Assembly: GCA_015061335.1 (NCBI GenBank)
Contig: SUWT01000003.1
Location: 1 to 64,000, forward strand
Direction of reading: 5' to 3'
DNA length: 64,000 nucleotides
DNA from: Lentimicrobiaceae bacterium
GTDB lineage: Bacteria > Bacteroidota > Bacteroidia > Bacteroidales > F082
Shown piece by piece: positions 47,142 through 58,523 of the stretch; positions within the stretch are counted from its first letter, which is position 1; each line of letters opens with the position of its first letter. A program made the position numbers and the translations under genes. Under the pieces are notes generated by a model. The model did no database searches. It was not told the origin of the DNA and saw only the letters and a program-made list of their open reading frames with translations.

Positions 47142-47174
47142 GAGGTGTCGTTGAAAAATGACGCCTCTTTTTTT
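47142..47174 (+). terminator. Terminator after gltS
   Basis: GAGGTGTC (47142-47149) pairs with GACGCCTC (47160-47167, one wobble), with inner pairs closing a GAAA loop and a T run after it; 87 bases past the gltS stop. Confidence 0.8.
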
Positions 47175-47180
47175 AGTGTA

Positions 47181-47204
47181 GAGTTTAGAGTTTAGAGTTT
47201 AGAG
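47181..47204. repeat. Heptamer tandem repeat (TTTAGAG)n
   Basis: About 3.4 head-to-tail copies of TTTAGAG without mismatch. Confidence 0.9.
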
Positions 47205-47300
47205 TGTGAGGTTGCAATAAATAACCTCTGCGATACTTTGCGCCTTTGCGAGAGAACCTTTCGACTTTCCCATTTAGACTTTAGATTTTCATCTTTAGAC

Positions 47301-47325
47301 AAAAAAAGGACGCCATATCGCGCCC
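47301..47325 (-). terminator. Terminator of the rluA-like gene
   Basis: On the minus strand GGGCGC pairs with GCGTCC (one wobble) around GATATG, followed by T7; 77 bases past the stop, beyond the heptamer array. Confidence 0.65.
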
Positions 47326-47330
47326 TCATA

Positions 47331-47400
47331 ATTCCTAACTCCTCATTCCTAATTCCTAACTCCTCATTCCTAATTCCTCATTCCTAATTCCTAATTCCTA
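47331..47400. repeat. Ten-unit heptamer array adjoining the rluA-like stop
   Basis: Exactly 70 bases read as ten heptamers made of ATTCCTA, ATTCCTC and ACTCCTC variants. The array ends one base before the stop codon of the minus-strand gene. Confidence 0.95.
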
Positions 47401-47401
47401 A

Positions 47402-48316
47402 TTAAACCCCTACCGCAGCATAAAACGCTTTCGGAATGTCAGTCTCGAATTTCATATCTTCTCCTGTGACAGGATGTTTGAAGCATAACTTATAAGCGTG
47501 AAGTCCTAATCTGTGGATAGGATCGCTGCCGTCACCATATTTTGAGTCGCCGACAACAGGACAACCTAAATCCTGAAGATGAACTCTGATTTGATTCTTG
47601 CGACCGGTCTCCAACTGCATCTCGACGAGTGAATATCCGTTGCCAGACTTTATTTTCTTATAATGAGATACCGCATATTTACCTCCGTTGTCTTCCTGAC
47701 TTGAATGTGTCACATAATGACTATCATCTTTAAGCCACGAAGCTATTGTACCTTGCGATTTAGGAAGCTCGCCATGAACCAAAGCGACATAGCGTCTATC
47801 GTAAACCCTCTCTTTCCAATCTTCTTCAAATTCGAGGGCTACTTTCTTGCTCTTAGCGAAAATCATCAAGCCTGAAGTGAATTTGTCGAGACGATGAACG
47901 GTGTGAGCATTAGCATGTTGATGCGATTTATCTAAATAATAATTAAGAATAGATTTGACGCTCTCATCTTTAGGACTTGTGCTGCTCGACAAGATGCCGG
48001 GTTTCTTTTCAATGACAAGAATATGATCATCTTCGAATACAATTTTAACCCAGAAGTTCTTGAATCTGTTGCCTTCGCTCGACTTCTTAATCGTGACACG
48101 CATATTAGGTTTCAGCAGGAAATCATGTTGCGAGACGGCTCTGTCGTTGACATTGACCAAGTCGTAAGTCAGCATTTTCTTCACTTTTGTACGGCTGATA
48201 CCGTCCATAGCTTTCATCAGAAACTCCATCAGTTCGCATTCCTCTCTGACGATAAAATCAATCTCCTGCGATTTCTTTTTATACTTATTATTCTTGTTGT
48301 TATAATGTCTTGCCAT
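47402..48316 (-). CDS. RluA-family pseudouridine synthase
   Basis: About 304 residues from ATG 48316; a TTG at 48337 is part of the promoter element and is rejected. A basic N-terminus and S4 RNA-binding domain (about 20-80, MDGISRTKVKKMLTYDLVNVND) precede the synthase domain. The catalytic motif is HTVHRLDKFTSGLMIFAKS (Asp in RLD), followed by RRYVALVHGELP, LETGRKNQIRVHLQDLGCPVVGD and the closing RLGLHAYKLCFKHPVTGE. It isomerises uridines in rRNA or tRNA; which site cannot be told. It marks the left border of the accessory block. Confidence 0.92.
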   Translation of the reverse strand: MARHYNNKNNKYKKKSQEIDFIVREECELMEFLMKAMDGISRTKVKKMLTYDLVNVNDRAVSQHDFLLKPNMRVTIKKSSEGNRFKNFWVKIVFEDDHILVIEKKPGILSSSTSPKDESVKSILNYYLDKSHQHANAHTVHRLDKFTSGLMIFAKSKKVALEFEEDWKERVYDRRYVALVHGELPKSQGTIASWLKDDSHYVTHSSQEDNGGKYAVSHYKKIKSGNGYSLVEMQLETGRKNQIRVHLQDLGCPVVGDSKYGDGSDPIHRLGLHAYKLCFKHPVTGEDMKFETDIPKAFYAAVGV

Positions 48317-48334
48317 CGTAAAAATTGTTTTGTG

Positions 48335-48342
48335 CAAAGTTA
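48335..48342 (-). promoter_or_regulatory. -7 promoter element of the rluA-like gene
   Basis: TAACTTTG on the minus strand, 19 bases upstream of ATG 48316. Confidence 0.6.
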
Positions 48343-48390
48343 AGAATTTTTAGGTTATTTCTATAAATTGCTTACCAAATGATTTATGAA

Positions 48391-48433
48391 TTTTTTAACG
48401 TGAAAGTTAATGAAAGTAGGATAGAAGTGTTAA
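48391..48433. repeat. Partial, decayed third copy of the 116-bp cassette repeat
   Basis: 43 bases matching the last 43 bases of the repeats at 49074-49189 and 50272-50387 with about four mismatches. It lies downstream of the DUF1016 pseudogene, 756 bases from copy A. Confidence 0.85.
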
Positions 48434-48489
48434 TTTCTGTTAAGGATTATCATCTTCGATTTCTGTTTTTACCTTATTTATTTCTTTAA

Positions 48490-49043
48490 TTAATTGAGAT
48501 TTTGTCGGTAGATACAATTGATATCATAATAATTCACATACATTTGTAATTGTCCTAAATCTTGATGAGACAATTTGTCGTTTTTCAATTCGATGATGAC
48601 GAAACAACGTAGCAGACGGTTGTAAAAGACCAAATCTATAAAGAACTCCAACCGTTATTGACAGACTCCAATTCGTAATATTCACGTTTGTCAGGATCAG
48701 ATATAGAAATAAGTTGTTTATATTGGTTCCAGTTCAATTGCGAACGCAGTGCGTTCGCAATCGGGTAAACTCTGTAAAATTGTCTGCTTTGTTCCAATGT
48801 TCTCACAGAAAAACCGCTGCCATATTCGGGAATCAATTTGTCAGCAAGATTCTTTATCAGGTAAGAACCATAATCAGCTCTGTCTTTTCCCTCCTGTTCC
48901 TCTTCGAAAATACGTTTGCCAATATCCCAATACATTCTTACACGACAGAAATCTACGCTTCTCACTGCCTTCTGACGCGCATTGTCGATTATGCTTTTCA
49001 CATCATCAATAAAATTCTGATTGCTTAAATCTTTCTTTTCCAT
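48490..49043 (-). pseudogene. Broken DUF1016 (PDDEXK nuclease) gene
   Basis: An intact frame covers the first 135 residues (ATG 49043 to a stop at 48636): a DUF1016 N-terminus with VRMYWDIGKRIFEEEQEG, YGSYLIKNLADKLIPEYG and LNWNQYKQLISISDPDKREYY. It then shifts frame, and the continuation in another frame encodes EFFIDLVFYNRLLRCFVIIE, LKNDKLSHQDLGQLQMYVNY and a premature stop at 48490. That continuation is the DUF1016 nuclease domain with its D-x-n-E-x-K core. The middle third of the gene is deleted (compared with the intact 350-residue gene next door), and the C-terminus after NYYD is missing. It is probably non-functional, although the N-terminal fragment could still be made. Confidence 0.88.
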
Positions 49044-49073
49044 AACATAAATTTTGGTAATTAAAACTTTGTG

Positions 49074-49189
49074 TTCTCATCTGCAAAACTACAATCTCAT
49101 CATCCTTTTGTCAAGACTTTTAAAAGGAAAAATTAAGCCATTAACAATTTTTAACGTAAATGTTAATGAAAGTAGGAGAGAAGTGTTAA
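49074..49189 (-). repeat. Cassette promoter repeat, copy A (116 bp)
   Basis: Identical over all 116 bases to copy B (50272-50387), 1198 bases away in the same orientation. It precedes the DUF1016 pseudogene. It holds a promoter (49084-49114) and an inverted repeat CATTAACA/TGTTAATG (49139-49146 and 49161-49168). Confidence 0.97.
49084..49114 (-). promoter_or_regulatory. Promoter within repeat copy A
   Basis: On the minus strand TTG (49112-49114), a 20-base spacer and TAGTTTTG (49084-49091): full -33/-7 elements, about 35 bases before the pseudogene ATG. Confidence 0.65.
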
Positions 49190-49196
49190 GAATTTA

Positions 49197-50249
49197 TTAT
49201 TCTAATTTCTCTTCATTTCTCTTTTTCATTTCGTTAGTAATCATCTCTTTTAATTTATTTGTCGGTAAAAGATACTGAAACTCAGCGACTCCTATTGGTT
49301 TGTTGATGTCTTGTAGAGCCAACTCCACCTCAAGATGTTCCTTATTTGCACAAAGAATAATGCCTATAGAAGGATTTTCGTCAGGTGCTTTCTCCAGCTT
49401 ATCCAACAACGATAAATAGAAATTCATCTTGCCGACATATTCCGGTTTAAATTCCCCGATCTTTAATTCAATAGCGACCATAGAACGTAACCTTCTGTGG
49501 AAGAATAACAAATCGACATGATATTCTTTGTTGTTAAATGACAAAGTATGTTGGTTGCCGATAAAGCTAAATCCGTTACCCAACTCCATGATGAAAGATG
49601 TGATTTTATTGACTAAGTGACGTTCTAAATCCAACTCTTTCAAAGGCTCGACAGCATCGATGAAACCAAGATGATAACGACTTCTGAAAATCTCATTTGC
49701 ATATTCTGCATTTTCATTAGACATGGTAAAAGCGAAGTTGTTAGATCTCTCGCTTGCTTGTAATGAAAGATGGTACTCAGATTTCAAAGCGAGGTATAAC
49801 ATATTCCTAGACCAACCTTTTGAAACAACTTCATTGGCATAAAAAAGTGTGTGCTCAGCAGACAAATCATAGTTTATCAATAGTAGATTATGACCCCATG
49901 GCAAAACTGCGACAAGCTGTCGCAGTTTTTCATCTTCTTGATAATAACGAAGATAAAAACGTTTCATGTCCCATAGATTTCTTGGAGACAATCCCATGTT
50001 GGGATATTTTGCTTTCAAATCAGCGGACAATCTTTTTACGACGCTATCGCCATGTTTGCTGTCCAGTTTGCGTTCTTCCAACAATCTGCCGATCTCCCAA
50101 TGAGAAGATATTATCGTTGTATTAATCTGCTTGGCAATCTGCACTCTTGAAGATTCTATAACTGCGATAGTCTCATGCAATAAATCCTGATAATCCTCTT
50201 CCTTGTAATTCTCTGATAATTCACCATTGTGATTTGTGATTTTTTTCAT
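49197..50249 (-). CDS. DUF1016 PDDEXK nuclease-family protein (YhcG-like)
   Basis: 350 residues. The N-terminal DUF1016 helical domain ([70 protein letters not shown]-like) is followed by the C-terminal nuclease domain: FIGNQHTLSFNNKEYHVDLLF, RRLRSMVAIELKIGEFKPEY (Asp, then E-x-K), YLSLLDKL and NPSIGIILCANKEHLEVE. The catalytic residues are present. YhcG-type proteins often sit inside or beside restriction-modification loci; their role is not firmly known. Here the gene is preceded by the 116-bp repeat copy B and divergent from the defence cluster. It is only distantly similar to the broken copy next to it. Confidence 0.9.
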   Translation of the reverse strand: MKKITNHNGELSENYKEEDYQDLLHETIAVIESSRVQIAKQINTTIISSHWEIGRLLEERKLDSKHGDSVVKRLSADLKAKYPNMGLSPRNLWDMKRFYLRYYQEDEKLRQLVAVLPWGHNLLLINYDLSAEHTLFYANEVVSKGWSRNMLYLALKSEYHLSLQASERSNNFAFTMSNENAEYANEIFRSRYHLGFIDAVEPLKELDLERHLVNKITSFIMELGNGFSFIGNQHTLSFNNKEYHVDLLFFHRRLRSMVAIELKIGEFKPEYVGKMNFYLSLLDKLEKAPDENPSIGIILCANKEHLEVELALQDINKPIGVAEFQYLLPTNKLKEMITNEMKKRNEEKLE

Positions 50250-50271
50250 AATATTTTGGTATTAATATATA

Positions 50272-50387
50272 TTCTCATCTGCAAAACTACAATCTCATCA
50301 TCCTTTTGTCAAGACTTTTAAAAGGAAAAATTAAGCCATTAACAATTTTTAACGTAAATGTTAATGAAAGTAGGAGAGAAGTGTTAA
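50272..50387 (-). repeat. Cassette promoter repeat, copy B (116 bp)
   Basis: Identical to copy A. It precedes the intact DUF1016 gene and carries the same promoter and inverted repeat (50337-50344 and 50359-50366). Confidence 0.97.
50282..50312 (-). promoter_or_regulatory. Promoter within repeat copy B
   Basis: TTG (50310-50312), 20-base spacer, TAGTTTTG (50282-50289) on the minus strand, about 33 bases before ATG 50249. Confidence 0.65.
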
Positions 50388-50542
50388 TTTTTATTAAGAA
50401 GGCAAATAGGCTTTGAGTTATGAGCGGTGGCTACGGGCTTGATGAAATGATGAGAAGATATGATGAAACATCAAGCTAAACCTGTTGATAAAAATCAATA
50501 ATTTTTTCGAATAATATTGTTAAAGTTTCGGATAATTATTGC

Positions 50543-50550
50543 TAAATTTG
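50543..50550 (+). promoter_or_regulatory. -7 promoter element of the defence cluster
   Basis: TAAATTTG; the only clear promoter element before the five-gene plus-strand cluster, leaving a leader of about 75 bases. Confidence 0.5.
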
Positions 50551-50632
50551 TAGATGATTCGTTTAAAAATAATTTTCTTATATTAAACTTGTTTGTGTTG
50601 TCAAACCTATTATGTAATAAAGAATATATTTC

Positions 50633-51640
50633 GTGATGATGAATAAAGAAATTGTTGATATACAGGAAAATGAAATGTTGAAAGAATATCCGGAAGTCTT
50701 GGTGCAGTTGTTACGTGACCATACAACTGGAAAAAATATATTCTGGGCGACTCATGATTATGAGTGTTTAGGTGACGGATATGAATATAATTCTGAGATA
50801 ACGATTGAATCTATCACAGGAGAGAATGGTTTTGTTGTTAAACCTCGTGTTCTTAAATCTAAAGAAAGCCAGACAGGTCGCGTAAAAGATATGGCTGAAG
50901 TTTTTACCCCATCATGGATATGTAATGCTCAGAATAATCTTGTTGATAATGCTTGGTTTGAAAGAGAAAATGTATTCAATATAGAAAGTGCTGATTCACG
51001 TTCATGGGAAGCGACAAAAGAAAAGATAATTTTTCCTGAAGGTAAGACATGGAAAGATTATGTTAAAGATACTCGCTTGGAAATAACCTGCGGTGAAGCT
51101 CCATATATTGTAAGTCGCTATGATACGACGACAGGTGCCTTTATTCCTTTGGAAAAACGCATTGGATTATTGGATAGAAAATTAAGAGTCGTAAGTGAAA
51201 ATGTTGATACAAGCGGCGAATGGTTAGAGTGGGCGCAAGTGGCATATAAAAACACATTCGCTTATGAGTGGCAAGGCGACAATCTTTTGTTGGCAAGAGA
51301 GGCGATGTTGCTTTCTTTCATTGAATATTACCAGGCTAAGTTTGGAAAGAAACCTTTGGAGAAGTCGATAAAGACAATCGCCTATATAATCTCATGGAAT
51401 GTATGGCAGATGGACGGACTGAAATGTGTAGTACCTAATTCTTGTAAGAATGGAGTGGTGGAAATAGTTTCTAATTTATTTGAGGAAGAAGAACAAGTCA
51501 TTAACTGCCATGGATGTCAGCAAGATAAAATGCACAAACATAACGGAATATATTGTCAGCTTCGCGATTGGGGAGTTAGAGATCCAAAAACCGGCGAAAA
51601 TAATATGAAGATTAGATTTGTAGATTTGTTTAAAAAATGA
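50633..51640 (+). CDS. Methylase-like restriction subunit ('subunit M' family)
   Basis: 335 residues (first Met at 50633; two further Mets follow). It has one methylase-type motif X region, DMAEVFTPSWICNAQNNLVD (about 87-105), then ITCGEAPYIVSRYDTTTG, RIGLLDRKLRVVSEN and FAYEWQGDNLLLARE. The SAM-binding motif I and the NPPY motif IV are both absent, so it cannot methylate alone. The C-terminus has a cysteine/histidine cluster (CHGCQQDKMHKHNGIYC, about 292-308), likely a zinc site. Such proteins precede large helicase-methylase genes in Bacteroidota and are called restriction endonuclease subunit M. Its stop is three bases before the 1309-residue partner, implying a complex. Confidence 0.82.
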   Translation: MMMNKEIVDIQENEMLKEYPEVLVQLLRDHTTGKNIFWATHDYECLGDGYEYNSEITIESITGENGFVVKPRVLKSKESQTGRVKDMAEVFTPSWICNAQNNLVDNAWFERENVFNIESADSRSWEATKEKIIFPEGKTWKDYVKDTRLEITCGEAPYIVSRYDTTTGAFIPLEKRIGLLDRKLRVVSENVDTSGEWLEWAQVAYKNTFAYEWQGDNLLLAREAMLLSFIEYYQAKFGKKPLEKSIKTIAYIISWNVWQMDGLKCVVPNSCKNGVVEIVSNLFEEEEQVINCHGCQQDKMHKHNGIYCQLRDWGVRDPKTGENNMKIRFVDLFKK

Positions 51641-51643
51641 GTT

Positions 51644-54600
51644 ATGGAAGGTGTAGAAATTATAGATGGTATTATATATGGCAGGGTGGATCCTCATATT
51701 TATGCGTTTGAAACCAATACTGTCCCGAACTTCTTGAAAGTCGGTGATACATATCGTCCTGTTAAAGTTAGGTTAGATGAATGGCGAAAACATTACAGCG
51801 ATTTGGTTCAGAGATTTGATGAAGTAGCCAAAGTTGATGAGGATACTTATTTCAGAGATTATTCGGTTCATCATTATTTGGAACATGAGAAAAAGCTTGA
51901 AAGAATAAAAGATGAAGATTTTACAGAAGACTTGTATAAATCAAATGAGTTCTTTAGAGATGCAACAGAGAAAGATATTGAGGATGCAATTGCTGATATA
52001 CAAAAGAATTTCAATGAGAATAGCGGGAAATATGTGTACTACAACATAGATGATCATTTGTCGAAAGATATTTCATACATTAGAGATGCAGATTGGAAAC
52101 CAAGAGCTAATCAACAAGTCGTAATTGACAATTATTTGAATGCTGTTAAAAATGGAAGAACGAATCTTCTTATGTATGCAGTTATGCGTTTCGGTAAATC
52201 CTTTACGGCATTATGTTGTGCTAAGGAAAGCAACGCAAAACTTGTAGTTGTCGTTTGCGGAAAGACAGACGTGAAAGAGGAATGGCGAAAAAATGTTCTT
52301 AAGCCTAAAATATTAGAAGGTTACGGATTCGTTGATACTAATGAATTGGTAAAAAATCCCAATATTATTTCTTCAGAACTTAATGACAATAAGAAAGTGG
52401 TAGTTTTTCTTACATTGCAAGATTTGTTGGGAGATAATATTAAGGATAAACATTTGGATTTGTTTAATCTTAATCAAGAAGGTAAGATAGATTTGCTTAT
52501 CATTGATGAAACACATTTCGCGGCGCGTTCCGAACAGACAGGAAAAGTGTTGAAGAATTTTCTGAAAAAAGATTTTAGACAAGAGGAAAAAGGTCAGGAC
52601 GAGAGTATTGAAGATTTGCAAGAGTGCGTAAAACAGTTTAATCCGAAAGTTAAACTTCATCTTTCAGGAACTCCTTATCGTATTTTGATGAATGGTGAAT
52701 TTACTAAAGATGATATAATAGCGTTTGTTCAATATGATGATATTGTTAGAGAACAAGAGAAATGGGATTCTGAGAATATGGAAGATGAAGAATGGAGAAA
52801 TCCATATTACGGTTTCCCGCAAATGATTAGATTCGCTTTCAATCTTAATCAATCGTCTATTGACAGACTAAATCAGATGAAGAATACAGGAGTTGATTTT
52901 CATTTGAACACATTATTCAGACCAGCATCGTTGAACAAGGATGAAGACAACAATTATAAGAAATTCAAATATGAGAATGAAGTCTTGGATTTGCTTTATG
53001 CAATTGATGGAGCAAAAACAGATGAGAATATCTTCAGTTTTTTGAATTACGATAAAATCAAAAAAGGTAAAATGTGCCGTCATATTGTGATGGTACTTCC
53101 TTATAGAGCTTCATGTGATGCTATGGAGAATATGTTGAAAAACAATCATTTCAACAATCTTAATGATTACGAGCTTATAAATGTGGCAGGATTGGATTCT
53201 CCTAAAAAGTATTCTAACGCAGTGAACAATGTCATTAATGTTATAAATGATATAAAGGATTACGAGGAGAAAGACCAGAAGACAATAACTCTGACAGTAG
53301 GAAGAATGCTTACAGGAAGCACCGTCGAGTATTGGGATACAATGATATATCTTAAAGATACGTTATCGCCGCAAGAATATGATCAGGCGATATTCCGTCT
53401 TCAAAGTCAATACGTAAAGACGATAAAAGGTAAAGATGGAAAAGAGATAAAGTACGATATGAAACCTCAAACTCTTCTGGTTGATTTTGATCCGACAAGA
53501 ATGTTTGTGATGCAGAATAGAAAGTCATTGATTTCTAATATAAATACTTCTATAAGAGGAAACGATGAGTTAGAAAACAGGTTGAAAGAAGAGCTGAGAA
53601 TATCTCCAATTATATTGTTTAATAAGGATAAGATAAAGAAAGTAGAGCCTACGGATATTATTGATGAAGTATGCAAATATTCTGCTAATAAAAGTATTTT
53701 GGATGAAACTTTTGATGTTTCCGTTGACAATACATTTTTTGATGATGAGATATTTTTGTCACTGATAAGTAAACAACCTGAAATGTCGGCACATGGAACA
53801 GTGTTTATTTCCAAACCCAATATAGGTGAGGAAGATGACGCAGAAACTGAAGAAACAGATGTGAATGCAGAAGGTGAGAAAATAAAATCACAAGAAAAAG
53901 AATCAGAAAAAGATGATGATAGAGAACAAAAGTCATTGATAAGAAAATTACAGACATATTATTTTAAGATCTTGCTGTTTGCATATCTTTCTGATTTGGA
54001 GGAAAAGACAATATCAGACATAATAAATAATATTGAAAATGATGATAATGCAAAACGTATAGCAAATAATATCCAGCTCGATATAGAAGGATTAAAATAT
54101 ATCAGAGAGAAGATACATCCGGTGGCACTCAATGAATTGGAAAATAAAATCAATAATATGGATCGTTTGAGTGGAGATTATGAAGCAGATGTCAAGACTG
54201 CGATGCGTAGGTTCTCTCGATTGTCTGAGTCCGAAATAATAACACCAGAATGGATAGCGAAAGATATGATAGAACTTCTCCCTGATGATATTGGTAAAGA
54301 TTTTAAGTTCTTGAATATTGCTGGTAAAACAGGAGAGTTTGAGTATGCTATAATAAAAAGATATGGAGACGATATCAAGAATAATATTTATACAATACCT
54401 ACTTCTGGCGTTACATACGAATGTACTCGCAAGATGTTTCAGTTGTTAGGAATACCAACAAAAAATATATATACGGATTTTAATTCGTTCGATTTAATAG
54501 ATAAAAACAAGAATCAAGATATAATAAAAACGTTATCAGATATGAAGTTTGATGCAGTAGTAGGAAATCCACCTTATCAAGAAGAAGGTCTTAATACGAG

Positions 54601-55573
54601 AAAAGCACCGATATATCATTTGTTTTATGATCTTGCTTTTAATTTGTCTGATAAGGTTTCACTTATATCGCCAGCCAGATTTTTATACAGGGTGGGACAA
54701 ACACCAAAAGGATGGATGGATAGAATTTTAAATGACAAGCATTTTAAAGTTGTCGATTATTTCCAAAAATCAATAGATGTTTTTCCTACTGTTGTTATAA
54801 AAGGCGGTGTAGCTATTACATACCGTGATACAAAACAAGATTTTGGAAAGATAGAGTTCTTTTCAAATTTTCCTGAGTTAAAGACAATATTGCAAAAAGT
54901 ATATATTCATAACGATTTTAAAAAAGAGGAATTTTCAAGAATAGTTTCATCTCAGGGAATTTATAGATTCTCCAATTTGGCATTAAAAGAACATCCTGAA
55001 ATTTTAGCTATTCAAGGTCAAGGAACAGCAGCAAAAATTACATCAAGAGGTTTTGAAAAATTATCAGATATATTTTTGGCAACAGAACCTGAAAATACAG
55101 ATGATTATGTTAAGATAATAGGTTTGTCAAATGGTCGTCGTGTTTTGAAGTGGATAAAGGTATCTTATATTCAAAATGTAGATTCTCTAAATTTTTATAA
55201 GGTTTTTGTGCCTGAGGCAAATGGTACAGGAGCAATAGGTGAGGTGTTAAGTACGCCGATGATCGGCTCGCCGATGATCGGCCATACAGATACATTTTTA
55301 ACTGTCGGAATGTTTAATGATTATGGAGATGCTAATAATTGTTTGAAATATGTCAGTTCCAAATTTGCTAGAACGTTGTTAGGAACTTTGAAGGCTACTC
55401 AGCATAATCCACGAGATACATGGGCAAATGTTCCTCTTCAAGATTTTACAGAAAAATCAGATATAGATTGGACTCAACCAATATCAGATATAGACAAGCA
55501 ACTTTACAGAAAGTATAATCTGTCAGAAGAAGAAATTGCTTTCATAGAAAGAATGATAAAATCGATGGAGTAG
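51644..55573 (+). CDS. GIY-YIG / SF2 helicase / N6-adenine methylase fusion restriction enzyme
   Basis: 1309 residues. Residues about 10-80 resemble a T5orf172-type GIY-YIG domain: HIYAFETNTVPNFLKVGDTY, RPVKVRLDEWRKHY (catalytic-type Arg), then YFRDYSVHHYLE, where an Asp stands near the usual Glu. The SF2 translocase follows: AVMRFGKSFTAL (Walker A, about 179), LLIIDETHFA (about 285), LHLSGTPYRI (about 339), and AIFRLQSQ (about 581). After an acidic linker (about 728-762) comes a gamma-type N6-adenine methylase: IITPEWIAKDM, FLNIAGKTGEF (about 889) and VVGNPPYQEEG (about 975). The C-terminal 270 residues should be the target-recognition domain. The order recalls type ISP enzymes, with a GIY-YIG domain in place of the Mrr-type nuclease. 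Confidence 0.85.
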   Translation: MEGVEIIDGIIYGRVDPHIYAFETNTVPNFLKVGDTYRPVKVRLDEWRKHYSDLVQRFDEVAKVDEDTYFRDYSVHHYLEHEKKLERIKDEDFTEDLYKSNEFFRDATEKDIEDAIADIQKNFNENSGKYVYYNIDDHLSKDISYIRDADWKPRANQQVVIDNYLNAVKNGRTNLLMYAVMRFGKSFTALCCAKESNAKLVVVVCGKTDVKEEWRKNVLKPKILEGYGFVDTNELVKNPNIISSELNDNKKVVVFLTLQDLLGDNIKDKHLDLFNLNQEGKIDLLIIDETHFAARSEQTGKVLKNFLKKDFRQEEKGQDESIEDLQECVKQFNPKVKLHLSGTPYRILMNGEFTKDDIIAFVQYDDIVREQEKWDSENMEDEEWRNPYYGFPQMIRFAFNLNQSSIDRLNQMKNTGVDFHLNTLFRPASLNKDEDNNYKKFKYENEVLDLLYAIDGAKTDENIFSFLNYDKIKKGKMCRHIVMVLPYRASCDAMENMLKNNHFNNLNDYELINVAGLDSPKKYSNAVNNVINVINDIKDYEEKDQKTITLTVGRMLTGSTVEYWDTMIYLKDTLSPQEYDQAIFRLQSQYVKTIKGKDGKEIKYDMKPQTLLVDFDPTRMFVMQNRKSLISNINTSIRGNDELENRLKEELRISPIILFNKDKIKKVEPTDIIDEVCKYSANKSILDETFDVSVDNTFFDDEIFLSLISKQPEMSAHGTVFISKPNIGEEDDAETEETDVNAEGEKIKSQEKESEKDDDREQKSLIRKLQTYYFKILLFAYLSDLEEKTISDIINNIENDDNAKRIANNIQLDIEGLKYIREKIHPVALNELENKINNMDRLSGDYEADVKTAMRRFSRLSESEIITPEWIAKDMIELLPDDIGKDFKFLNIAGKTGEFEYAIIKRYGDDIKNNIYTIPTSGVTYECTRKMFQLLGIPTKNIYTDFNSFDLIDKNKNQDIIKTLSDMKFDAVVGNPPYQEEGLNTRKAPIYHLFYDLAFNLSDKVSLISPARFLYRVGQTPKGWMDRILNDKHFKVVDYFQKSIDVFPTVVIKGGVAITYRDTKQDFGKIEFFSNFPELKTILQKVYIHNDFKKEEFSRIVSSQGIYRFSNLALKEHPEILAIQGQGTAAKITSRGFEKLSDIFLATEPENTDDYVKIIGLSNGRRVLKWIKVSYIQNVDSLNFYKVFVPEANGTGAIGEVLSTPMIGSPMIGHTDTFLTVGMFNDYGDANNCLKYVSSKFARTLLGTLKATQHNPRDTWANVPLQDFTEKSDIDWTQPISDIDKQLYRKYNLSEEEIAFIERMIKSME
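55255..55285. repeat. 15-bp tandem duplication inside the target-recognition region
   Basis: CGCCGATGATCGGC occurs twice head to tail with period 15, encoding PMIGS-PMIGH in the C-terminal specificity region of the 1309-residue enzyme. Confidence 0.85.
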
Positions 55574-55608
55574 AGAATGTGTATTGATGTAGGTAAATAA
55601 AAAAACGT

Positions 55609-56421
55609 ATGGCATTATTTTCAGAAAGATATGGGTATGTAAAACCTGACGACATTATAATAAGAGAAAGAATAAACGAACCAATATTAAATAGTATTGA
55701 CAACTGGCTTTATGATATTCCTGAGGATAATAAATGGTTTGAGATACAACGTTTTTTTTGGACACGATTTTTGAATAATAAGGTGTCAGATTTAGACAAG
55801 CAATGGGATTTTCATTATTATGATATAGTTAGAAAATACATTGGTAGCCGAGACATTGAATGGTATAAAAAATTAGATGCAATCGAATTTATACTGCCGT
55901 ATATTAAAGATGAGTACGGAGATTCTTTTTGCGAACAAGAAATAGACGAGTTAAATGCTGAATTCAGCAGACATAATTTTGCTTATCGTATCATTGATTA
56001 TAAAATTGTTGAAGTTAATTCTGAGGAAGAGATTCGTTCGATTGAAAATGCTCTCGATAATCCTATATCAGAAGTTGGCGTTCATTTAAGAACAGCGTTG
56101 GAAAAAATATCTTCATCACAAAAAGAACCTGATAGCAGAAACTCCATTAAGGAATCAATCTCTGCTGTTGAATGTTATTGCCGAAACAAAACAAATACTA
56201 CATCATTTGGAGCTGCAATAAATCAAATAGAGAAAAAAATATATATCAACAAGCAGTTGAAAGAAGGACTAAACAAGATTTATGCATACACATGTAATGG
56301 CGATACAGGTATTCGCCATGCATTGATGGATGATGATAATCCACCTACAAAAGATGAGGCGATTTTTATGTTGGTAATGTGTAGTGCTTTTATTAATTAC
56401 TTTACAAAGAAGTTAGGGTGA
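55609..56421 (+). CDS. AbiJ-NTD4 family abortive-infection-like protein
   Basis: 270 residues. The opening FSERYGYVKPDDIIIRERIN ... LNSIDNWLYDI is the AbiJ_NTD4 signature, followed by WYKKLDAIEFILPYI and NAEFSRHNFAYRIIDYKIVEV. The C-terminal half (about 150-270) is all helical: ALEKISSSQKEPDSRNSIKE, ISAVECYCRNKTNTTSFGAA and GDTGIRHALMDDDNPPTKDE, with an Arg-His pair that recalls HEPN-type nuclease or Abi domains. AbiJ proteins block phage growth by stopping the infected cell. It is third in the cluster, 35 bases after the methylase fusion, with a plausible role as a backup to restriction (inference). Confidence 0.82.
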   Translation: MALFSERYGYVKPDDIIIRERINEPILNSIDNWLYDIPEDNKWFEIQRFFWTRFLNNKVSDLDKQWDFHYYDIVRKYIGSRDIEWYKKLDAIEFILPYIKDEYGDSFCEQEIDELNAEFSRHNFAYRIIDYKIVEVNSEEEIRSIENALDNPISEVGVHLRTALEKISSSQKEPDSRNSIKESISAVECYCRNKTNTTSFGAAINQIEKKIYINKQLKEGLNKIYAYTCNGDTGIRHALMDDDNPPTKDEAIFMLVMCSAFINYFTKKLG

Positions 56422-56465
56422 ATAAAGTATAGTAAATTGTTGTATAGTTGTCACAATTAAGAAAA

Positions 56466-57362
56466 ATGGAATTTTATAATAAGACAAAATATAATATTGA
56501 CGATATATATTATTTAATAGAAAGTGAAGCAGAAGAATCTATTTATCTCGACTTTAAAGCAGCAGGTTCACTGAGTAAAGAACCTAAGAAAAAAGAAGAA
56601 ATAGCAAAAGATGTATCTGCTTTCGCAAACTCAGATGGTGGTATCATTGTATATGGTTTAGAGGAGCGAGACCATAAAGCTCACAAATTATCATATATAG
56701 ACGGAAATACGTATACAAAAGAGTGGTTAGAACAGGTTGTTCTAGATAATATCCAACGGCGAATAGAAAACCTTGAAATATTCCCAATTCGAGAAAACGG
56801 CGATATGACCAAGACGATTTATGTTGTCAAAATTCCTCGTAGTAGTAACTCTCCTCATATGAGTGCAGACAAGTGTTATTATAAGCGCAATAATTTTCGC
56901 TCTGTTAAGATGGAAGAATATGAGGTTAGAGATTTGTTTTATCGAGAGTCGGTCCCAGATTTAAGGATATCAGAATATTTATTTGATAAAATTAAGGAAG
57001 ATTCAGACTGCATAACATTTTGTATTCTGGTTCAAGTCGCAAATATTAGTAATACAATAGCGACACTATATAAGTTGAATTGTTACATAAGTGCTTTTGA
57101 AAATATTCACAATTATTGTGGTAAGTATATATCAGAATTTATAAGTCCAACTATAGTAAATGATAATAAATTGAAAATTTCTGAAATGGGAAAATGTCCG
57201 TTGTTTCCTAATGAGGTCTTGGATATGTTAAGAGTTGAATTTCAAATTAAAAAAGATAAAATTCATGACTTCGTCAATAATACAACATTCGAATTTGTTC
57301 TGATGTTTGCAAACAAAACAGACAAGGTATCTTTTTTAGCCAAAGATTTTAATTTCAATTAA
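56466..57362 (+). CDS. Schlafen-type AlbA_2 domain protein
   Basis: About 298 residues from ATG 56466 (an in-frame TTG at 56448 is rejected because a proper ATG with A-rich leader follows). Residues about 16-160 are an AlbA_2/Schlafen core: ESEAEESIYLDFKAAGSLSK, DVSAFANSDGGIIVYGLEE, FPIRENGDMTKTIYVVKIPR and CYYKRNNFRSVKMEEYEVRDL. Acidic residues (Glu23, Asp29, Asp49) sit where Schlafen RNases have theirs. The C-terminal 130 residues are beta-rich with no recognised family. AlbA_2 proteins occur in defence loci and as transcription regulators, so either RNA/DNA cleavage or regulation of the cluster is possible. Confidence 0.82.
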   Translation: MEFYNKTKYNIDDIYYLIESEAEESIYLDFKAAGSLSKEPKKKEEIAKDVSAFANSDGGIIVYGLEERDHKAHKLSYIDGNTYTKEWLEQVVLDNIQRRIENLEIFPIRENGDMTKTIYVVKIPRSSNSPHMSADKCYYKRNNFRSVKMEEYEVRDLFYRESVPDLRISEYLFDKIKEDSDCITFCILVQVANISNTIATLYKLNCYISAFENIHNYCGKYISEFISPTIVNDNKLKISEMGKCPLFPNEVLDMLRVEFQIKKDKIHDFVNNTTFEFVLMFANKTDKVSFLAKDFNFN

Positions 57363-57387
57363 AATTAAAACAATCTCTGAGAACACT

Positions 57388-58167
57388 ATGCTCCTCCCAT
57401 CAATGACATATAAAGAGATGTACGATAATCTCGCAGCAGACCTTGAAAAGATTAAGATAAAGAAAGAATATCTTTTGCCGAGGGCTGTTAAAGAACTCAA
57501 AAAGGAAATGAGATTTCCTGCTTGGAGATACTATGAATATACAATTCCAGCCTCGGGTAATAAGTATGTAATATTCTTCTATGCAGATAACAAATTCTCT
57601 GTTCAAAATCCTAAAACAGATTATTTTTGTCTTGCATACGATGATGATGGTAGAAATGTAATTAAATGGGGTGCAAGATGTTTTGTGCCAGATGGTGGAG
57701 AAATGATGCTTCTCAGAGAAATACAACTATATACAATTCACTTTTTCGCTAGATATAAAGAACGCTGGTTAAATAATGAATCGAGATATAAAAACATGTC
57801 GCTCAGTGCAAATGATGTTGCTTGCATATATCTGTCAAGAAACAAAGATAATGCAATGCCAATCGAAATGAATGATGAGATTAATAAACGTTTAGATAAA
57901 TACGGAGAAGGAGCAAAGTACGGATATCGTGTCAGAGACGGATTTTGCTTCACACTGACAGATGGTCAACAGGTGAAAGGAGAAGATTCCAAAGAGAGAC
58001 CCATAGCGCGATACGTAGTGTATAAAACCTTTATGAACGAGTCAGACATGGCTGATACGCAACTGTCAGCCATAGATAAAGAATATTACCAATCTTGGTT
58101 GCAATACCAACGAGTTATGCAAGAGAAATTGCAAAGCGGCAATACAACCTTAATACTTGAAAAATAG
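57388..58167 (+). CDS. Unknown protein closing the defence cluster
   Basis: 259 residues; ATG 57403 is a second possible start. Not recognised. The N-terminal half is a mixed alpha-beta segment (YEYTIPASGNKYVIFFYADN, KTDYFCLAYDDDGRNVIKWG). The middle has a repeated aromatic pattern (QLYTIHFFARYKERWL), and there is a lone motif GARCFVP. A second half with GYRVRDGFCFTLTDGQQVKG and MNESDMADTQLSAIDKEY follows. No signal peptide, membrane segment or nuclease motif is visible. It is fifth in the cluster, 25 bases after the AlbA_2 gene, and is followed by repeat-rich DNA; its place suggests it travels with the defence genes, but function is unknown. Confidence 0.75.
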   Translation: MLLPSMTYKEMYDNLAADLEKIKIKKEYLLPRAVKELKKEMRFPAWRYYEYTIPASGNKYVIFFYADNKFSVQNPKTDYFCLAYDDDGRNVIKWGARCFVPDGGEMMLLREIQLYTIHFFARYKERWLNNESRYKNMSLSANDVACIYLSRNKDNAMPIEMNDEINKRLDKYGEGAKYGYRVRDGFCFTLTDGQQVKGEDSKERPIARYVVYKTFMNESDMADTQLSAIDKEYYQSWLQYQRVMQEKLQSGNTTLILEK

Positions 58168-58523
58168 TCGAAAGACAAAAGTCTAAAGTCTAAAGGGAAG
58201 AAGTATGAACCACCTTCCTACCAAGTTCCTAATCATTTTAAACCTGAGAAACTGAAAATCTGAAAACCTGAGACGTCAAAATCTCCAACTTTGAGACTCT
58301 GTGTCTTTGCGACCTATTATCAAAAAATCTCCTATCATCTGCATCAGATGACCTTAAATTCAGACAAGAAATTCGATGATTTCAGTCAAGATAATTAATT
58401 TTCAAAAAAAGTAAAACTATCACAAAATTCCTTACATTTGCAAAGGGCATTAAGCTCATGACCCATGGCTCACAGCTCAATGCAAAAATCTTGAATTATT
58501 AATTATTATAAAAATAACAATAT
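58168..58523. repeat. Repeat-derived intergenic region before transketolase
   Basis: 356 bases without a gene. It contains decayed intergenic repeats (GACAAAAGTCTAAAGTCTAAAG at 58174-58195, much like 47109-47130; a CTGAGAAACTGAAAATCTG-like track; CTGTGTCTTTGCGACC near 58300, recalling 47230-47257), then the transketolase -7 element at 58433-58440 and a GGCTCACAGCTCAATG stretch (58467-58482) in the leader. Confidence 0.8.
58433..58440 (+). promoter_or_regulatory. -7 promoter element of the transketolase operon
   Basis: TACATTTG; leader of about 78 bases. Confidence 0.6.

Follow-up and report, generated by a model that had tools for sequence, protein, structure and literature searches.

Near-identical promoter modules before unrelated accessory genes in a ruminant-gut Bacteroidales lineage

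Introduction

Mobile promoters, or promoter propagation in prokaryotes (Matus-Garcia 2012 and van Passel 2014, as cited in PMC8049555 and PMC9944727), and horizontal regulatory transfer or regulatory switching, in which regulatory DNA moves or is replaced independently of genes (PMC9944727), are established ideas. Concerted evolution by gene conversion, of which rRNA operons are an example (PMC8022953), leaves copies within a genome more alike than orthologues. Two PDC families, PDC-S02 and S05, are reported to be common in rumen genomes in an account (PMC13356809) whose available part makes no mention of a shared promoter.

The module described here resembles mobile promoters in that near-identical promoters stand before non-homologous genes of one genome. 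It differs in being tied to a narrow set of gene families that includes phage-defence candidates, in its local homogenisation and in joints that lie inside coding starts, and no new insertion was seen among the flanks compared. As distinct from horizontal regulatory transfer in the same sources, module copies are paralogous within a genome and it is the gene behind the promoter that changes; as distinct from rRNA operons, likeness is limited to the 5′ unit of non-homologous genes. Within the partial literature covered, no description of a homogenised promoter module of such genes was recognisable by title or abstract.

Results

Two identical repeats in an accessory stretch

The window is a 64,000-nucleotide stretch of Lentimicrobiaceae bacterium (GCA_015061335.1, contig SUWT01000003.1, positions 1–64,000); G and L numbers label genomes and loci, and the window's own genome is G000. 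The features under study are:

48343–58450, no strand assigned: accessory stretch, absent from G009, holding R0–R2, genes A and B and four further genes
50272–50387, minus strand: R2, full 116-bp module copy 5′ of gene B; model match, including the outer TTAACA-like box, 50280–50399
50307–50312 (TTGACA) and 50282–50289 (TAGTTTTG), minus strand: promoter boxes of R2
50359–50366 and 50337–50344, minus strand: inverted-repeat arms of R2
49197–50249, minus strand: gene B, intact YhcG/DUF1016 protein of 350 aa with DUF1016_N and YhcG_C domains; PADLOC PDC-S02
49074–49189, minus strand: R1, full 116-bp module copy 5′ of gene A, identical to R2; model match 49082–49199
48440–49043, minus strand: gene A, broken YhcG/DUF1016 gene; N-domain kept (ORF 48636–49043), two inner deletions
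48392–48444, minus strand: R0, third module copy of which the left part is present; identity 93% over 42 nt and lower from there to 48444

A preliminary description of the locus had reported identical 116-bp promoter repeats, each upstream of a DUF1016-family gene on the same strand, with a partial third copy nearby. These observations were all reproduced. R1 and R2 are identical over the complete 116 bp, and each was found in the own genome by BLAST with E = 1.8e-55, which excludes chance. Both have minus-strand orientation, and the distance to the following gene is 23 nt for gene B and 31 nt for gene A. Both carry TTGACA-N17-TAGTTTTG, a promoter that fits the Bacteroidota −33/−7 type. R0 matches at 39 of 42 bases (48392–48433) and is 91% like 50346–50398 over 53 nt.

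Gene B scored above the Pfam cut-off for both domains of the YhcG/DUF1016 nuclease family (121.4 bits for DUF1016_N and 184.4 bits for YhcG_C). Gene A retains the N-domain (127.9 bits); of YhcG_C, no more than 43 positions survive, in a separate ORF. Compared to its G064 orthologue, two inner stretches of ~293 and ~120 bp are gone, so gene A is indeed broken, and the loss of ~39% is a little more than the third first estimated. The stop codon of gene A falls inside the next TTAACA both in the window, where this is R0, and in G064, whose array (module-A, module-YhcG, cut module) has the same layout; on these grounds, we interpret R0 as the beginning of a third unit that has been lost.

In G009, the sequences that border the stretch 48343–58450 (window positions 48342 and 58451) are 172 bp apart, and thus ~10.1 kb, repeats included, is accessory here. 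Besides A and B, this stretch encodes a type II methyltransferase, a type IIG enzyme, an AbiJ-type protein and an AlbA_2 protein. The preliminary description had pictured an array beside a restriction system; nothing ties the module to a restriction system.

Genes A and B are only distantly alike, as first described, with 25% protein identity over 131 aa and DNA homology not above noise. The tandem layout, and an assembly in 143 contigs, might suggest a recent duplication of one unit or an assembly artefact. We find either scarcely credible and reject both: each of A and B has its own orthologues in other species, and the two lack mutual DNA homology, showing that they are not recent duplicates at the DNA level, and similar arrays occur in other assemblies (L149, L103 and L123). 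Simple tandem duplication is therefore unfit to explain the locus, as had been argued from the window, and identical promoters on divergent genes need either recombination limited to the promoter or exchange of the genes behind it.

Anatomy and distribution of the module

The repeat corresponds to a 5′ unit of ~120 bp with three components: TTAACA and TGTTAA boxes in pairs, a promoter of the Bacteroidota type and a leader. Alignment of 17 copies revealed invariant TTAAC, GTTAA-n-AA-n-TGTTAA, CTTGACAAA and TGTA..TTTG elements, and four TTAAC/GTTAA boxes whose starts are ~10, 34 and 10 bp apart, the outermost being the least conserved. The inverted repeat first noted (8-bp arms, 14-bp spacer) is present in the window copy as one form of this box region and is absent from many of the 17 aligned copies. 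As a folded element, the window copy gave z-scores of −0.50 and −0.47 and one other copy gave −0.73 and −2.47, and no structure is claimed; Rfam gave no match in window positions 48000–51000.

By BLAST, the repeat had nine matches across its own genome; of 60 genomes searched, 4 (G000 among them) gave matches, and G009 gave 13. A sequence-only model built from the 17 copies was then searched against 99 genomes of the genus (E ≤ 0.001). Matches were found in 32 genomes, 11 of which contained four or more (4–19 per genome): G009 (19), G081 (18), G068, G072, G073 and G079 (10 each), G000, G063 and G064 (8 each) and G062 and G077 (4 each). The remaining 21 matched genomes had one or two matches each, mostly weak. 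A pattern scan of GTDB genomes returned 62 stretches, mostly in ruminant-gut Bacteroidales assemblies. Fifteen outlying stretches of the 62 and the single viral stretch were rescored; L156 and L174 proved to be clear copies and L196 a weak one (18.9 bits), and the other 13 gave no module match. A phage search gave no match, and a plasmid search gave three weak matches, all inside the nuclease gene.

Genes behind the module

To characterize the downstream genes, the surroundings of the stronger copies were fetched. From 96 model matches in 76 sources, the 90 of at least 28 bits were used (the six dropped were all below 24 bits) and divided into 65 strong copies of at least 55 bits and 25 weaker copies. 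Genes were labelled by tblastn with 28 proteins, 26 of which have Pfam families; the names RAYT and HicB are our own presumptive labels, for which Pfam gave none (for example, none for the L104 protein). The module lies mostly directly 5′ of single genes. The first labelled family was YhcG/DUF1016 for 37 strong copies, RhuM or RhuM-Fic for nine and HicA or HicB for three; LPD3, RAYT-like and IVP genes followed two each, and KilA-N, Bro-N, Fic-DUF4172, HTH (HigA-like) and BNR genes one each, with five copies left without a label. The related genomes therefore do not hold the repeat always before one DUF1016 gene in one order, and the proposed array of DUF1016 genes proved too narrow a description, as YhcG is not the first match downstream of 28 of the 65 strong copies and the own genome holds nine matches to the repeat.

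The tested YhcG, RhuM, RhuM-Fic and KilA-N proteins matched the PADLOC families PDC-S02, S05, S23 and S22, respectively, which that resource lists as phage-defence candidates and whose function is only proposed. Sharing of upstream DNA (at least 70 nt at 80% or more) was scored between protein-unrelated genes of the same genome, and was found for 37 of 165 pairs within the guild, 8 of 3,012 guild–other pairs and 6 of 12,323 other pairs, rates that apply to loci chosen for the module and are not genome-wide.

Among the 25 weaker copies, seven precede the core gene DUF2851 and three precede lipocalin. The DUF2851 version is a diverged form of the module in seven genomes (L110, L113, L114, L101, L133, L146 and L152) that is apparently vertically inherited and may be an old source of the module. 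At 20 weak loci, mostly outside the eleven genomes, the DNA fetched included a labelled gene in 10, one of them DUF2851. At another site (L032:7017–7700, L109 and L138), a gene for IVP (23S rRNA intervening-sequence protein) lies between the module and a peptidase gene in G009 and G068, within short ATGTAGTG/CATTACTTC-like repeats; in G072, where the IVP gene is absent, the module adjoins the peptidase gene.

Modules resemble their genome more than their gene

Gene B has orthologues in G009 (two), G063, G068, G073 and G081 with DNA identity of 78–82%, and their modules are 63–77% like that of the window; for gene A (orthologues in G064, G068, G072 and G081), the values are 79–87% and 61–70%. 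Modules before unrelated, non-homologous genes of one genome can be near-identical. Of 62 accessory modules that have an orthologue, 35 are nearer to some module of their own genome whose gene is unrelated at the DNA level than to their closest orthologous counterpart, with the own-genome maximum taken over more copies than the orthologue maximum, and 27 are as close or closer to an orthologue. Against the orthologue mean, the own-genome likeness was higher for 47 of the 62 accessory modules. For core DUF2851 and lipocalin copies, the count was one of nine. Unrelated copies of one genome are thus more alike than orthologous copies, the pattern of concerted evolution. R1 and R2 were not scored as mutually unrelated, because a 42-nt repeat linked their downstream stretches, which makes these rows conservative; two L150 copies near a contig end were left out of this comparison, the tree and the AU tests.

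In a tree of 78 modules, the genome label required 40 changes, compared to a shuffled mean of 55.3 (0 of 200 shuffles as low). The gene groups likewise required 40 changes, so a gene signal is present too. With few columns, 15 of 75 inner branches were starred. One starred group holds R1, R2 and a third G000 copy; another holds 17 modules, 15 of them from G068 and G081, that precede YhcG, RhuM, RAYT-like, LPD3, KilA-N and HTH genes. AU tests rejected one module lineage per gene for gene B (p = 1.1e-8) and gene A (p = 1.9e-6), as well as a third gene group held together (p = 2.7e-4), these groups having been picked after the data were seen. Module pairs less than 3 kb apart were more alike than other same-genome pairs (medians 0.855 and 0.756; n = 10 and 159; stratified permutation p = 5.5e-4), although in G009 and G081 neighbours hardly differ. 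Taken together, these comparisons support modules that track genomes more than genes.

Selection alone, with a shared regulator preserving operator and promoter and no recombination between copies, would explain why boxes and promoter are invariant in the 17 aligned copies and why the core DUF2851 copies look vertical. It is nevertheless improbable, since the bases of the spacer are particular to each genome and do not differ between R1 and R2, and since modules of orthologous genes have diverged where those of unrelated neighbours agree. Regulatory constraint by itself gives no such pattern and recombination would, from which we infer recombination between the copies.

Another source of likeness would be a module that is itself copied to new sites, for example by a RAYT-like enzyme, and lands 5′ of resident genes. 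The likeness of modules before unrelated genes often runs from the left TTAACA to near the −7 box, as such an element might, but fixed ends are equally expected of conversion, which stops where homology stops. RAYT-like genes do follow two of the 65 strong copies, and RAYT-like matches lie near four weak copies outside the 11 genomes (L012, L041, L080 and L084), but the RAYT name is ours where Pfam gave none, as for the L104 protein, and we found no gene that had stayed at its site and gained a newly inserted module. We therefore consider such a mobile promoter unlikely. As a separate observation, RAYT-like remnants adjoin weak module copies at L012, L045 and L080, in genomes outside the eleven, and in L012 and L080 they are near what are presumably ribosomal-protein genes.

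Gene turnover and joints behind the module

Gene content varies between species at the same chromosomal site, as the unit-swapping reading of the preliminary description expects. Between the same flanks (86% and 93% identical), G081 (L129) has a module and an HTH (HigA-like) gene and G068 (L107) a module and a YhcG gene, and the site in G009 (L028) holds a larger set with two YhcG genes. G009 (L030) carries YhcG where G064 (L147) carries RhuM-Fic (flanks 91% and 83%). In G068, the module is followed by YhcG-A and then YhcG-E; in G009, a module that is 99% identical over 150 bp lies directly before YhcG-E, and the change falls at the shared leader. G081 has a YhcG gene between the module and a BNR gene, and in G009 the module (99% identical) persists along with a short 5′ remnant.

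Some joints lie within the leader or the first codons, giving N-terminal chimeras as judged by nucleotide comparison. After the ATG, gene B of the window and a G081 RhuM gene are alike at 22 of 24 nt, and the likeness includes the leader. First-codon matches of at least 18 of 24 nt were found for 8 of 726 cross-family pairs, which rest on two YhcG and four RhuM genes, compared to 0 of 2,904 internal windows; one of 53 start codons was mis-set and dropped.

Integron gene-cassette arrays consist of head-to-tail single-gene units next to repeats, and a comparable dedicated system, in which a recombinase uses the repeats to insert or exchange DUF1016 cassettes, was considered. Head-to-tail arrays occur in the window and in L021, L026, L103, L123, L144 and L149, and in both the window and G064 the end of gene A lies in the following TTAACA. 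However, each integron cassette has its recombination repeat on the 3′ side, whereas the module repeat lies at the 5′ side with the promoter, and an element-like match on the right was found at only 9 of 65 gene 3′ ends (internal controls, 2); these are thus single units without cassette anatomy. Joints are at varied places in the leader or first codons, and no recombinase was found among the proteins examined. A cassette system of this kind is very unlikely, and of the two processes first proposed, cassette exchange and promoter-restricted gene conversion, promoter homogenisation is the better supported. Sharp homology ends at the element start and the stop codon resemble precise mobility, a reading that we reject: the closest pair has 70 of 98 fourfold sites identical, and the flanks may simply have decayed. 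Among the matches listed, which are dominated by other intergenic repeats, flank comparisons gave sites with different genes and no clean new insertion.

Sequence comparison thus supports promoter homogenisation with gene turnover behind it, and the locus probably represents a lineage-specific 5′ expression module that is kept alike by recombination while gene bodies change behind it. R0, R1 and R2 would be copies of this module, whose leader would reach to or into the first codons. In this ruminant-gut Bacteroidales clade, the module would drive single genes that change fast, with many phage-defence candidates among them. The modules of a genome would stay alike through homologous recombination from copy to copy, either by gene conversion or by the joining of incoming genes to a resident module, and gene bodies would be gained, lost and swapped behind them. 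The window would then record a recent homogenisation of R1 and R2, the decay of gene A and, in R0, the remnant of a third unit. The fixed spacing of the boxes points to a single regulator common to the copies.

More tentatively, and with some doubt on our part, this could be a portable module for an accessory immune repertoire: one operator–promoter–leader–start unit, held uniform by recombination, to which the bodies of candidate defence genes are joined, in some cases as N-terminal chimeras, leaving a changing repertoire under the control of a single host regulator. If this is right, a genome can renew its candidate defence genes yet keep common control, and a shared regulator of single-gene defence candidates becomes testable, with a known operator and many natural copies to serve as baits. 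It would also caution that promoters may be alike through concerted evolution without the genes having a common origin.

YhcG genes without the module

In G000, the GTTAA..A.TGTTAA motif was found before 5 of the 8 YhcG genes for which upstream DNA was available; in G009, the count was 9 of 18. Together with TTGACA, it stands before 4 and 8, respectively. That the module explains YhcG expansion is unsupported, as genomes without a module match carry up to 20 YhcG matches, and a shared promoter of YhcG genes elsewhere was likewise unsupported in G032, G084, G101, G045 and G051. Upstream pairs passing 70 nt at 75% numbered 0 of 91 in G101, 0 of 66 in G084 and 0 of 55 in G032 (covering 14 of 18, 12 of 16 and 11 of 13 matches, respectively), compared to 27 of 153 pairs for G009 and 6 of 28 for G000. 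Species in which no module match was found may thus hold just as many YhcG genes, with no common promoter among them, and the module is therefore a trait of one lineage that the family as a whole does not require.

A different conserved leader, TATNAANCATAGCGTTTGC (~45 nt with context), was observed before tandem YhcG and other genes at L294 (G053), L308:412–435 and L311:397–420 (G084) and L345–L356; exact matches to it occur in 14 of 100 genomes, compared to 0 for the reversed control, and Rfam gave no match. Intergenic DNA is also rich in short degenerate repeats (such as CTAATTCCTCATTCC and GTAGTCTTGTGGTCTTG) that are common to loci and species, as seen at window positions 47160–47410 and in L103, L129 and L147.
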